DNA from: Phormidium sp. FACHB-1136
GTDB taxonomy: Bacteria; Cyanobacteriota; Cyanobacteriia; Phormidesmidales; Phormidesmidaceae
Length of the DNA: 33,472 nucleotides
Reading direction: 5' to 3'
NCBI RefSeq assembly: GCF_014697375.1
Contig: NZ_JACJRS010000059.1
Span: forward strand, 1 to 33,472
This document shows positions 13,643-28,035 of this stretch, in pieces; within the stretch, counting starts at the first letter, position 1, and the number at the start of each line of letters is the position of its first letter. The notes under the pieces were generated by a model, which saw nothing but the letters and a program-made list of their open reading frames with translations, made no database searches and had not been told where the DNA came from. The translations under genes and the position numbers were made by a program.

Positions 13643-13724
13643 TGGGCAGAGCGAGACTCGAACTCGCATGACCGAAGTCGCCACATTTTGAGTGTGGTGC
13701 GTCTACCAATTTCGCCATCCGCCC
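13643..13724 (-). tRNA. tRNA-Leu (anticodon CAA)
   Basis: On the minus strand the gene folds as a class II tRNA. The acceptor arms are GGGCGGA and TCTGCCC (one G-U pair), with discriminator A at 13643. The anticodon stem CCACA/TGTGG closes a loop CTCAAAA, giving CAA, which reads UUG. A short variable arm follows, and the T arm contains GTTCGAGTC. CCA is not encoded. The 5' 22 nt (13703-13724) also encode the last codons and stop of the M48 protease gene on the same strand. Confidence 0.96.
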
Positions 13725-23731: not shown

Positions 23732-24823
23732 ATGCCCGATCAAGACTCCCTGGACTTTTCCCTCGCGGCCTATCAATACCATCTGCCCCCAGAGCGCATT
23801 GCCCAAAATCCCGTCACCCCAAGGGATACCTCGCGTCTGCTCGTGGTCGATTCCCGCACCAGCTACCGCCACCAGCATTTCTATGATCTACCCAACCTAT
23901 TGCAACCGGGGGATCTGCTGGTGGTGAACAATACCCAGGTGATCCCCGCCCGACTGCTGGGGTATAAGCCGGAGGGGGCCAAGGTGGAGGTCTTTTTGCT
24001 GGAGGAAACGGGGCACCACCAATGGCTGGCGCTGGTGAAACCCGGTCGTCGCCTCAAGCCGGGGGCGATCATCCACTTTGGCCATGATCCCCAGCGGCCC
24101 GACCTCATCGCCCACGTTCTGGAGACCGATCCCGACACCAACGGACGCCTGCTGCGGTTTGAGGTTGGCGAAAATCAGCCCCCAGGCGAATCCCTCTATG
24201 CCCTGTTCGAGCGGTTGGGTAATGTCCCTCTCCCCCCCTACATCACCGAGACTACCGCTTCCCCTGATCAATACCAAACCATCTACGCCGAAACGCCAGG
24301 GGCCGTAGCCGCACCCACCGCAGGGCTGCACTTCACCCCCCAGGTATTTGAGGGACTAGACCAACGGGGGATCGCCCGTGCCCAGTTGACCCTCCATGTG
24401 GGGGTCGGCACCTTTCGGCCCGTGGAAGCCGAGAACATCCTGGAACACAAAATGCACGGCGAGTGGATTGATCTCCCCGCTGACACCGTAGAGAAAATCC
24501 TCGCCACCAAGGCCAACGGCGGGCGGGTGATGGCCGTGGGAACCACCGTCGTTCGCGCCCTAGAGGGAGCGGCCCAAAGGGGATCGCTGGAACCGCTCCA
24601 GGGCAAAACAGAACTCTACATCTATCCCGGCTACCCGTTCCGGGTGATCGACGGCATGATTACCAACTTTCACCTACCTGGATCCAGCCTGATGATGTTG
24701 GTGAGTGCGCTGATTGGTCGCGAGCGACTACTCAGCCTCTACGAAACCGCCATCCAAGAATCCTATCGGTTCTACTCCTTTGGCGATGCCATGCTGATTC
24801 TGCCCGAAGCCAAGATCCCGTAG
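23732..24823 (+). CDS. queA: S-adenosylmethionine:tRNA ribosyltransferase-isomerase
   Basis: QueA transfers and isomerises the ribosyl group of S-adenosylmethionine onto 7-aminomethyl-7-deazaguanine in tRNA, giving epoxyqueuosine at wobble position 34 of tRNAs with GUN anticodons. The 363-residue product has standard length and family blocks: FDYxLPxERIAQxP form ([17 protein letters not shown]), [23 protein letters not shown], the [10 protein letters not shown] block, [22 protein letters not shown], and the C-terminal [18 protein letters not shown]. It stands as a single gene. The ATG at 23732 fits the family start. Confidence 0.97.
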
Positions 24824-25497
24824 GGTGCAGTGCTTCTCGAAGGCACCGTCCTTGGTCAACGCTGTAGCGGTAACGATAAAGCCTTGCCCCATATGGAGTA
24901 CGCTGCGCTAACCCATCCGACCGAGGGCTAGCGATGGCCTTACCTTTAAGCTGTCTCACCTCCTTAGGATTGACCGTCGCACATCAATTTTCCGACGGCC
25001 AGAGCAATTCTAAAAAAATCCCCAAGAACTTCTTCCCAGAGAGGTAAATTTTGAACCGAAACCGCTATCTTAGTATTGTGTTGATTTACCAACGAGCAAT
25101 GCCGTAGCCATCATCCACGAAGCGATTCTAGGACAAGCTTGGCTAGGGGTTAGGGGACTATCTCCTAATGGATGAATTGCCCGCAGGTAATCACCATCAG
25201 CGGTGGGTAGCCGACGCTAGAACAATCCCATAGGTTGGTTTTGCATAGATCGTCTGCGATACAGATCGTTTGTCTTTGACGCTGGAGCCACGACGGTATC
25301 GGTCGTTTTGAACGCTACAGATTCACCGTCAACGGGCTAGGGGCAAGTTAGGCTTGGCCCTGCTTTTAGTAGCTTCACACCAGAGATAGTCTAGCCCCTT
25401 GGGTTAGCGTTGATCGCTTGATCCGATCAAGGCTGATTTGCCAACAGGTGCTCTACCCCTCCATTTCTATCGCCAACTCCCTAAACAACTCAAATCA
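24824..25497. other. Long intergenic region (674 bp), no protein gene seen
   Basis: Between queA and the next plus-strand gene there is no credible reading frame. At 24899-24918 lies TACGCTGCGCTAACCCATCC, the core of a dispersed repeat common between cyanobacterial genes. At 25340-25367 an imperfect stem (GGGGCAAG with CTTGGCCC, one mismatch) is followed by TGCTTTT, which could end a plus-strand RNA. An AT-rich patch near 25030-25080 contains TTGAAC and TAGTAT but with poor spacing. A long leader of the next gene or a small RNA are both possible. Confidence 0.45.
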
Positions 25498-26154
25498 ATG
25501 GCTACTTTTGAGACCGTAACTCGACCGTTTTCCCTAGCGTTGATGACCGCAGCGATGGTCAGTACAGCGGGAGGTCTGAATCAACCGACTTCTCTATCGG
25601 TCATTGCCCCATCGGTTGCCCAGGCACAGTCCGTTGATCCCCAATCTGGTGATCCCCAGTTTTCAGAGAATGCTCTCCCGGTAGACGTTTGCCTAGACTT
25701 GCCCGATTGGCAGCGTCCCTCCACCCAAACCCAGCAAAAACACCTGCGCACCGTGGCCCAGTACGGTGCCGCGCTCCAGTCCGAGCCGCTGCTGAGCGTT
25801 GCCAAAGATTGGTGGAGCCACGAGGTGTTTTCCTTCACCACCTACGGCCTTAGCGCCCGCACCGATCCCCTGTATCTATCGGGGCTGTGGACAGTGGTGG
25901 ATCAAACCTGGGCCTGCTATGAGGGCACCCAACCAGAAGCTATCAACCAAGGCCAAGTAGCGGAAGTCTGGCTAATGCATCACCGCCTGGTAGGGGTGCA
26001 GTGGCAGCAGGATCAATATGTGATGACCGTTGAACCCGCCGAAACCGGACTGCAACTGGTGCAGTTTCCCCGCCAAGAGCAAGGCCCATCCCTACCCATC
26101 ACCCTCATGACCCTAGCCGGAGATACCCTAGCCGTCATGTCCGGTGACTGGTAA
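25498..26154 (+). CDS. Secreted hypothetical protein
   Basis: From the ATG at 25498 the product has about 218 residues with an N-terminal signal peptide (LALMTAAMVSTAGG core, likely cleavage in the PSVAQAQ region). The mature part includes DVCLDLPDWQRPS, an Arg/Tyr-containing middle (HEVFSFTTYGLSARTDP), and a WTVVDQTWACYEG strand with a second Cys. Two cysteines (CLDL and ACYEG) may form a disulfide. No family is recognised. An upstream in-frame start at 25438 would put 20 polar residues before the signal peptide and is less likely. It is probably periplasmic. Confidence 0.7.
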   Translation: MATFETVTRPFSLALMTAAMVSTAGGLNQPTSLSVIAPSVAQAQSVDPQSGDPQFSENALPVDVCLDLPDWQRPSTQTQQKHLRTVAQYGAALQSEPLLSVAKDWWSHEVFSFTTYGLSARTDPLYLSGLWTVVDQTWACYEGTQPEAINQGQVAEVWLMHHRLVGVQWQQDQYVMTVEPAETGLQLVQFPRQEQGPSLPITLMTLAGDTLAVMSGDW

Positions 26155-26337: not shown

Positions 26338-26619
26338 TTAATCAATGGCTGAAATGGTTTGGGCCAGGGCAAAATCTTTTTCGGTCAGGCCGCCCGCATC
26401 GTGGGTACTCAGTTCGATCACGACTTTGTTGTAGGAAATGGCAAGGTCGGGATGATGGCCCGCCGCCTCAGCGGGTTCCACTAGGCGGTTCACAAAATCC
26501 ACAGCGGCAATGAAGTTTTTGAAGGTGCGGGTGCAGGTAATCGTCTTACCGTTGAGGCTCCAGTCGGGCAGTTCGCTAAGCTTGGATTGAATGGCGTCGG
26601 TGGTCAGTAGGGTAGCCAT
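26338..26619 (-). CDS. 4a-hydroxytetrahydrobiopterin dehydratase (pterin-4a-carbinolamine dehydratase)
   Basis: PCD dehydrates 4a-hydroxy-tetrahydropterins and so recycles the pterin cofactor of aromatic amino acid hydroxylases; in bacteria without such hydroxylases its role is less clear. The 93-residue product from the ATG at 26619 is typical in length. It shows the family core AEAAGHHPDLAISYNKVVIE with the conserved HHPD at residues 55-58, followed by LSTHDAGGLTEKDFALA. No phenylalanine hydroxylase gene lies nearby. An upstream in-frame ATG (26703) would add 28 residues unlike the family. Confidence 0.93.
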   Translation of the reverse strand: MATLLTTDAIQSKLSELPDWSLNGKTITCTRTFKNFIAAVDFVNRLVEPAEAAGHHPDLAISYNKVVIELSTHDAGGLTEKDFALAQTISAID

Positions 26620-26767
26620 CGTAGAGATTCCGTAGTGCAACCCCCTGATCCTAAAACATTCCCAAAAACTATCCGCCCTGCCTAGGGAAGAGAAACTCTT
26701 CAAAGGCGAGGGCGGTCTAGCTGGATCTTCGGTTAAACCTGACTGCCGGGAGGAACCCTTATCAGCC

Positions 26768-26977
26768 AGCTTCAGAAGCTTAGTTCGCTAGGCGAACACT
26801 GAGTCTTAGAGAACGGCCCCGGCGCACAGCCGGCTTTCGTTAACCTGAAGACCCATACGTTTACTACTCTCTTGCATGGGCATCACCTCCTGAAGGACTA
26901 AAGGGTACAATCTCAAGGGTTCGCCTGCTGGTCTTGTCAGCATTAGTGGTTAAGGTAGCACAGTCTTTTCGGCTGTG
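26768..26977 (-). ncRNA. Candidate structured RNA or leader containing a short ORF
   Basis: Read on the minus strand, about 210 nt carry six short hairpins: CACAG/CTGTG (26959-26977), GCTG/CAGC (26927-26941), TCCT/AGGA covering the ribosome site (26888-26897), CCGGC/GCCGG (26819-26833), GTTCGC/GCGAAC (26783-26797) and AGCTTC/GAAGCT (26768-26780). In addition GGCGAAC at 26919-26925 is complementary to GTTCGCC at 26791-26797, which would compete with the GTTCGC hairpin and enclose the short ORF. I do not recognise it as glutamine (glnA/downstream-peptide), cobalamin or TPP riboswitch. No promoter or terminator is certain. Confidence 0.4.
26806..26877 (-). CDS. Short ORF, 23 codons, behind a near-perfect Shine-Dalgarno
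   Basis: ATG at 26875-26877 is preceded at 8 nt by AGGAGG within AGGAGGTGAT, by far the strongest ribosome site in this window, where most genes have none. The peptide begins MQESSKRMGL and ends CAGAVL with a TAA at 26806-26808. An in-frame ATG two codons upstream is too close to the ribosome site. The ORF lies inside a region of hairpins, one of which (26819-26833) overlaps its last codons. It may be a leader peptide or a free small protein. No gene follows in the same direction except the pterin dehydratase about 190 bp on (start 26619). Confidence 0.45.
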   Translation of the reverse strand: MQESSKRMGLQVNESRLCAGAVL

Positions 26978-27058
26978 GCAGAAATTTACCCGTTATTACG
27001 TGAAAAATTAGCCCCGAACCTCGTCTATCTTGAAATCAGGCTTTTCCTCACCCGATAG

Positions 27059-27081
27059 CCCTCTCCCAATTTGGGAGAGGG
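27059..27081. repeat. Inverted repeat CCCTCTCCCAA-T-TTGGGAGAGGG
   Basis: A perfect 11-bp inverted repeat with a single central base lies 84 bp before the nadC start. Pyrimidine/purine-rich palindromes of this kind are common intergenic repeats in cyanobacteria. There is no T-run, so I do not call a terminator. Confidence 0.8.
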
Positions 27082-27165
27082 ACTTTGAAGAATCCCTCTA
27101 GTTCCCCTATCCCAAGCGGGGGGAGGGGAGGGCCAAGACAATGTGTTTCTCCATGGACTGCGTTT

Positions 27166-28035
27166 ATGCCCTCGGATCTCCCCCTTTCCCTGCCCGCCAT
27201 TCTTCTGGATCCCCATCTACAAACCTGGCTGCAAGAGGACATTGGCCGAGGAGATTGGTCTACGGCGGGGCTAGGGGACTTGGCACGGCGACCGGGGGCG
27301 GCGATTTGGGTGGCCAAGGCTCCGGGGATCATTGCTGGGTTGCCCGTGGCCGCACGGGTGTTTCATTTGCTGGATCCTGCGGCCAGTTTTGATCCCCAAG
27401 TGGCTGAGGGATCGTTGTGTGAACCGGGAACTGTCGTGGCCAACCTGCGGGGATCGCTGGCTACTCTGCTGATGGGGGAACGGGTGGCGCTAAATTTGGC
27501 CATGCGTCTGAGCGGCATTGCCACCGCGACTCGTCAGTCTGTGGACGCCCTGGCGGACTATCCCACCCAGTTTGTGGACACCCGCAAAACCACCCCCGGC
27601 CTGCGCCTGCTGGAAAAGTACGCGACCCGTGTGGGCGGAGCCTTTAACCATCGGCTGGGGCTGGATGATGCGGTGATGATCAAGGACAACCACATCGCCG
27701 CAGCGGGGGGCATTCGGGCGGCGGTGGAACAGGTACGAAAAACCATCCCCTACACCCTCAATATCGAAGTCGAAACCTCAGACCTTTCCCAAGTCAAGGA
27801 AGCCCTAGCCTGCGGGGTGGAAATCATCATGCTGGACAATATGCCGCCCGACGTGATGACCATGGCGGTTCAGATCATTCGGCAAGCCAATCCCCGCATC
27901 AAAATCGAAGCCTCCGGCAACGTCACCCTCGATACCCTGCGCCCCATTGCCGAAACGGGGGTGGATTTCATCTCCAGCAGCGCCCCCATCACCCGTGCCC
28001 CCTGGCTAGACTTGAGTATGCGCATGGTGGAATAG
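27166..28035 (+). CDS. nadC: Carboxylating nicotinate-nucleotide diphosphorylase (quinolinate phosphoribosyltransferase)
   Basis: NadC joins quinolinate and PRPP to give nicotinate mononucleotide and CO2, the third step of de novo NAD synthesis. From the ATG at 27166 the product has 289 residues, the usual length. Motifs are EDIGRGDWST near residue 24, DTRKTTPGLR at about 138-147, NHRLGL near 161, KDNH at 173-176, EVETSDLSQ, IMLDNMPPD, EASGNV and a C-terminal GVDFISSSAPIT. A start further upstream (27085) would begin within low-complexity repeat-like DNA. It stands alone between a repeat-bearing spacer and the lactate permease gene. Confidence 0.96.
   Translation: MPSDLPLSLPAILLDPHLQTWLQEDIGRGDWSTAGLGDLARRPGAAIWVAKAPGIIAGLPVAARVFHLLDPAASFDPQVAEGSLCEPGTVVANLRGSLATLLMGERVALNLAMRLSGIATATRQSVDALADYPTQFVDTRKTTPGLRLLEKYATRVGGAFNHRLGLDDAVMIKDNHIAAAGGIRAAVEQVRKTIPYTLNIEVETSDLSQVKEALACGVEIIMLDNMPPDVMTMAVQIIRQANPRIKIEASGNVTLDTLRPIAETGVDFISSSAPITRAPWLDLSMRMVE

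Follow-up and report, generated by a model that had tools for sequence, protein, structure and literature searches.

A small cyanobacterial gene whose conserved 23-codon reading frame is predicted to pair with its own 3' untranslated region

The window, that is, the whole analysed stretch of 33,472 nucleotides from Phormidium sp. FACHB-1136 (contig NZ_JACJRS010000059.1), carries on its minus strand a short ORF, MQESSKRMGLQVNESRLCAGAVL, located upstream of a PCD gene. Judged by its sequence, the element around this ORF is a small free-standing gene that is kept across a wide range of cyanobacteria, and its mapped parts are collected in Table 1. A sequence-only reading of this DNA had pointed to a strong Shine-Dalgarno (SD) sequence 8 nt before a 23-codon minus-strand ORF, which was confirmed: the AGGAGG of the SD AGGAGGTGAT (26891..26882) ends 8 nt 5' of the ATG at 26877. 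The same reading had called this the strongest ribosome site in the window. Measured against the 3' end sequence of 16S rRNA, its 10 nt are indeed the longest complement in the window, but the rank is shared with AAGGAGGTGA at 24965 (-). The latter site is situated between the ORFs 23732-24823 (+) and 25438-26154 (+). The span originally assigned to the element, 26768-26977, contains the ORF and the SD but is too short on the 3' side, where the partner strand of the fold described below and the terminator occupy 26751..26664.

Table 1. Mapped parts of the element in the window (predicted features; positions are those of the window)
Feature	Position	Strand	Basis or remark
Predicted transcript	26664..26949	-	5' end approximate, placed from the -10-like box; ~290 nt
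-10-like box GTGCTAC	26955..26961	-	pattern G[TC]G[CT][TC]A, compared across loci
Shine-Dalgarno AGGAGGTGAT	26882..26891	-	10-nt complement of 16S 3' end
AGGAGGTGATGCCC directly before ATG 26877		-	read from window sequence
ORF MQESSKRMGLQVNESRLCAGAVL, 23 codons + stop TAA	26806..26877	-	sequence and codon test
Start-codon hairpin P0 (CCCAU:AUGGG, AGAGUAGUAAA in loop)	26852..26880	-	RNAalifold; weak covariation
P1 5' strand GGGUCUUCAGGUUAAC, within ORF	26839..26854	-	covariation (A1, A2)
P1 3' strand, in 3' UTR	26723..26736	-	covariation (A1, A2)
P2b 5' strand GCCGGCU, within ORF	26828..26834	-	covariation and RNAalifold
P2b 3' strand AGUCAGGU	26737..26744	-	covariation and RNAalifold
P2 5' strand GCCGGGG, within ORF	26817..26823	-	covariation and RNAalifold
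P2 3' strand UCCCGGC	26745..26751	-	covariation and RNAalifold
Hairpin GTTCGC/GCGAAC in variable loop (local hairpin of the sequence-only reading)	26783..26797	-	sequence
Second conserved block, 3' of ORF	26759..26723	-	conservation
Intrinsic terminator CTAGACCGCCC...GGGCGGATAG + U tract	26664..26720	-	pairs kept in alignment

The signals flanking the ORF were compared across loci. In alignment A1 (MAFFT, 43 of 47 representatives; L028, L034, L035, and L038, which have long middles, were left out) the SD columns are invariant or at least 90% conserved, and a strong SD is present in nearly all loci. Of 73 diverse loci, 54 have a G[TC]G[CT][TC]A box 40-130 nt 5' of the ATG, compared with 13% when the stretch is mononucleotide-shuffled, and the distance of the box to the ATG ranges from 56 to 126 nt. 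A scan with the sigma-70 consensus yielded no promoter. At the 3' end, each of the 13 terminator pairs is retained in 40 to 43 of the 43 sequences, and a pattern search found the terminator in 164 of 170 loci. By eye, the GAGCGGATAG terminator is absent or replaced while the ORF is kept in L036, L118, L154, L202-L206, L215, L217-L219, and L221-L223. Two minor features of the 5' UTR were also observed by eye. A hairpin, GCUGACAAGACCAGC at 26927-26941 (-), seems to be kept in form and not in sequence in several loci (e.g. L021, L024, L030, and L035), and a ACCGTTTAGG-like box just 5' of the SD, with the window version ACCCTTTAG at 26898-26906 (-), is common to many loci.

A BLAST search with a 321-nt query matched 53 genomes out of 57, counting that of the window. 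After the spurious match L046 (G030) was dropped, the element is carried by 51 of the 56 other genomes, sampled among relatives and the class. A covariance model built from A1 (R1, threshold E <= 0.01) matched 125 of 386 genomes of the phylum, a count that includes the window's own genome and the out-of-class G135, whose match is of the same weak kind as that of G228. The matches L239 in the out-of-class G228 and L211 in G354 are weak, have no such ORF, and were excluded from the set of loci used for gene context. Almost all genomes matched by R1 gave a single match, with an extra weak one in G146 and G321. Looser R1 settings, applied to 12 genomes, recovered G045 (E 3.3e-20), which had been missed by BLAST, and again G051; eight of the genomes gave nothing, and the matches in G231 and G199 were marginal. 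At these settings R1 also had no match in small genomes, e.g. G034 and G211. The copy in G045 (L271), a genome that is Gloeobacter-like in size, has the frame MSIPGTSLNLRTANGRLCAGAVAL preceded by GGAGGTGGTGCCG, and the N-terminal half of this frame is unlike that of the other members. Among 81 genomes of a family with small genomes (1.0-3.9 Mb, in size like marine Synechococcus), a marine-type query matched 50, its own genome included, and caught six that R1 had missed (G187, G189, G222, G235, G246, and G250). A pattern scan of named genomes returned at least 118 stretches, and 80 of 80 titles among the matches listed were cyanobacterial. Two exact element patterns had zero copies in viral contigs.

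The ORF could be read in 170 of 171 loci. It has 23 codons in 158 of these, and 24 (five loci), 25 (one), 27 (one), 17 (four), or 16 codons (one) in the others; the stops in 74 representatives are 32 TAA, 40 TAG, and 2 TGA. Among the 74 representatives, 64 have 23 codons, and for these the crude nonsynonymous-to-synonymous ratio of single changes comes to 0.51 in the reading frame versus 1.06 and 1.48 in the other frames, a measure that is not a formal dN/dS and for which the frame-0 ORFs had been selected as open. Codon 3 specifies D or E in 64 of 64 sequences, and all 24 changes in this codon are at the third base. Whole-codon insertions were seen by eye in L029, L030, L036, and L221. The stretch AGTAGTAAA is kept at the nucleotide level, beyond the conservation of S-S-K alone. 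Shortened frames are found in L044, where a one-base gap in A1 amounts to a frameshift that cuts the frame to 16 codons, and in L045, L059, L107, and L168, with 17 codons each. L059 and L107 belong to Thermosynechococcus, as does L116, which has 23 codons. Among the marine-type loci, 25 of 30 could be parsed with a pattern that required a Ser-Cys-like motif and under 40 codons (five loci were not parsed), and 25 of 25 parsed ORFs have 17 codons and the stop TGA. The C-terminal portion of the peptide is missing from the 16-17-codon frames of the marine-type loci and of L044, L045, and L059. Three 23-aa peptides gave no match in NCBIfam or Pfam, a search that has low power at such a length, and no occurrence of five peptide strings was found in the open-licence literature. 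By reading, the peptide is polar across its first two thirds, which does not match the hydrophobic membrane peptide expected of a type I toxin mRNA.

Gene context was assessed in 110 loci (the 74 representatives plus 36 of 38 additional loci) with flanks of 3.5 kb, shorter for some, and with neighbor names checked on single examples. On the same strand, PCD lies downstream in 40 of 110 loci, a porin in 41, and GAF-HD in 16, and PsbD lies upstream in 19; in 66 loci PCD, GAF-HD, or the porin is found within the available flank. In L036, the downstream gene encodes YchF and is on the opposite strand. In the window, the PCD ATG is at 26619, ~44 nt past the U tract, and read-through into PCD is possible. 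Because the element has its own terminator and its neighbors vary, the RNA is best seen as a stand-alone unit. The cis-regulatory role that had been suggested for it is, given this terminator, the variable downstream genes, and the arrangement in L036, unsupported in general.

Three stretches, P1, P2b, and P2, make up the pairing between codons 9 to ~21 of the ORF and the 3' UTR block; they were found by eye and then counted. For the 25 pairs in A1, 91.8% of 1063 cells are paired versus 85.0% after shuffling (0/500 shuffles), both-side changes occur in 16 of 25 pairs versus 9.2 (0/500), double-sided cells number 86 versus 27.2 (0/500), and further pair types 41 versus 36.8 (12/500), these shuffle controls ignoring the relatedness among sequences. 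Sliding the A1 registers by 1 to 3 columns gave 21-57% paired. In the model-fitted alignment A2, which consists of 73 true loci and two weak partial rows (second matches in L089 and L064), 96.5% are paired with 155 double-sided cells, and here the alignment is biased towards the model for P1 and P2, P2b being absent from the model. One set of 73 of the 74 representatives omits L097. RNAalifold, unaided, predicted P0, P2b, P2, and the terminator; P1 is absent from its prediction.

Covariation of the start hairpin and the local P2 hairpin is weak, with 14 double-sided cells versus 7.5 (1/500) and pair types that are no better than shuffled. The start hairpin CCCAU:AUGGG and P1 need the same GGG and are therefore mutually exclusive. 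In L041, all three strands of the start hairpin and P1 are altered together, as noted by eye. The hairpin GTTCGC/GCGAAC lies in a region of A1 that varies in both sequence and length. A GGCGAAC/GTTCGCC pair, which in the sequence-only reading could compete with this hairpin, did not prove conserved in the nine loci checked. It comprises 8 nt in the window copy (L001), is left with 7 nt in L003, and is lost in the 97% identical L002. In the six other relatives the complements are different, unrelated ones of 0 to 8 nt, suggesting that complements this long turn up there in any case.

In the energy model, the mean P1 pair probability exceeds 0.5 in 64 of 73 loci and is 0.5 or lower in nine, e.g. 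L036 and L059. P2 and P2b both exceed 0.5 in 32 of 73 loci and do not in 41, including the window copy, while the start hairpin and the local P2 hairpin each do so in 13 of 73. For the window copy the probabilities are 0.91 for P1, 0.34 for P2b, 0.26 for P2, and 0.58 for the local hairpin, and its single-sequence fold is of ordinary stability (z -0.96). The evidence for the structure comes from covariation and not from single-sequence stability. In the short-frame loci L044, L045, and L059 the bases that pair with the 3' block are retained by eye; by energy, L045 makes the fold between ORF and 3' block, whereas L059 does not. Within the predicted full fold, the SD is paired in more loci than it is unpaired, with a median unpaired probability of 0.39 and values above 0.5 in 18 of 68 loci, and when the ORF was masked in silico it was still unpaired above 0.5 in just 18 of 68. 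As masking the ORF leaves the SD unfreed, the data do not support a simple on/off switch acting at the SD. A feedback on the SD through UUCCUYCC was also considered and rejected: with the ORF masked, SD/3' UTR pairing above 0.3 goes from 3 to 17 of 68 loci, and the SD is not freed.

A literature comparison suggested that the family is already on record. ncl0160 is a conserved sRNA of Synechocystis 6803 that likely encodes a peptide of 23-25 aa, its homologues always have a possible ribosome site in front of the ORF, and the stops among 83 are 47 TAA, 34 TAG, and 2 TGA (Brenes-Alvarez et al. 2016, PMC4734099). As its text describes, that survey omitted the marine Prochlorococcus/Synechococcus lineage (PMC4734099). 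Like ncl0160, the present element is an intergenic RNA that is widespread in cyanobacteria and has a conserved ORF of 23-25 aa behind a ribosome site, and it is likewise present in heterocystous and other cyanobacteria. Because of this close fit in ORF, ribosome site, and spread, we take the two to be the same family; the element is thus very probably ncl0160, in print since 2016, and the novelty previously supposed for it is doubtful. The name was found in no open-licence paper besides PMC4734099. A long-range fold is not described in the text of that paper, whose alignment, weblogo, and predicted structure are given in its Figures S1 and S2, and as the fold was set against ncl0160 by text description, no claim to newness is made for it. 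The shortest entries in Table 2 of PMC5126843 are not below 26 aa.

The sequence-only reading had proposed an RNA that encodes a small protein, and this part of its proposal, here with a conserved fold, is supported by frame conservation and covariation. The covariance search retrieved homologues (125 of 386 genomes), alignment A1 shows compensatory changes (86 double-sided cells versus 27.2), and the in-frame ratio of 0.51 and the 23 codons in 158 of 170 loci speak for conservation of the peptide. In Rfam, the window element had no match, permissive thresholds gave just matches far below gathering scores, and the element in nine related loci had no match at gathering. Searches for the Downstream-peptide and glnA motifs (RF01704 and RF01739) gave no match at gathering in the window, nor at E up to 5 in 26600-27200, so the earlier remark that the core of this class is missing was right. 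The sole Rfam match at gathering in the window, and the sole tRNA found, is a tRNA-Leu (caa) at 13643-13724 (-).

These motifs resemble the element in being cyanobacterial RNAs tied to a short conserved ORF, but their conserved part is in the 5' UTR of that ORF (PMC2864571), whereas the conserved core here is within and after the ORF. Both the latter difference and the lack of RF01704 or RF01739 matches make a metabolite riboswitch of this type very improbable. Yfr6 of Prochlorococcus, an RNA of 239-244 nt with a short internal ORF, differs in that its ORF encodes 33 aa from nt 97 (PMC1242208). The 33-aa ORF behind a Downstream-peptide 5' UTR is not found in our element, which has 23 codons and no RF01704 match.

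Taken together, the data point to a stand-alone peptide mRNA of the ncl0160 family whose coding sequence would form one strand of a conserved fold that translation would have to open, a reading with about even chances of being right. Most likely, the peptide would be a real product and the fold would gate its translation. We infer that the locus is transcribed and translated, that the fold is opened by translation, and that its opening is of importance. Two RNA states can be envisaged. In the untranslated RNA the coding sequence would be locked to its own tail, and this closed state would limit peptide output and protect the RNA. A ribosome entering from the strong site would first have to open the start hairpin, followed by P1, P2b, and P2, and the 3' block would thereby be free while translation runs. 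The state of translation would in this way set both the amount of peptide and the exposure of the 3' block.

The conservation of the reading frame and the strong SD would equally suit a plain small-protein gene, in which the peptide is the sole product and the fold-back is a structure for mRNA stability or decay that involves no switch; such folds need not be regulatory. However, the extent of two-sided change across the 25 pairs, together with a start hairpin whose GGG is also used by P1, suggests more than bulk stability, and we consider this explanation rather unlikely. Less probable is a non-coding structured sRNA in which the ORF is kept merely because the fold uses the same bases. It would account for AGTAGTAAA being conserved as nucleotides beyond S-S-K, and for the 3'-block-pairing bases that are kept despite the shortened frames of L044, L045, and L059 (in L059 not by energy), but the in-frame ratio of 0.51 versus 1.06 and 1.48, the whole-codon insertions, the strong SD in nearly all loci, and the 17 codons found in all 25 marine-type ORFs that were parsed argue against it. 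Slightly less probable still is a leader-peptide attenuator of the downstream gene, PCD in the window. Same-strand PCD in 40 and porin in 41 of 110 loci are in its favor, as is, by reading, the little room for a promoter between the window terminator and PCD. Yet the constant cis gene of an attenuator is not found, as even the three families together reach 66 of 110 loci within the available flanks, which were short for some loci, and YchF in L036 is on the opposite strand, and P1 and P2 do not overlap with the terminator stem.

Beyond a translation-gated peptide mRNA, the freed 3' block may possibly have a role in trans. On this extended reading, which is tentative and on the unlikely side, the element would be a bifunctional RNA from Gloeobacter-like to marine-type cyanobacteria, in which ribosome traffic on a frame of 16-27 codons switches between the closed form and an exposed 3' block acting in trans. 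Dual-function RNAs such as RNAIII/delta-hemolysin and SgrS/SgrT also have a short peptide inside a regulatory RNA (PMC2518516). Unlike in these, the coding sequence of our element would itself be one strand of the main helix. A tiny gene that is kept by so many cyanobacteria, apparently including early-branching and marine ones as judged from genome size and family, is likely to be important, and the fold supplies concrete base pairs by which RNA and peptide function could be separated through compensatory mutation. In the marine-type loci, GGGUC pairs with the 3' UTR at a probability above 0.5 in 21 of the 25 that were parsed.
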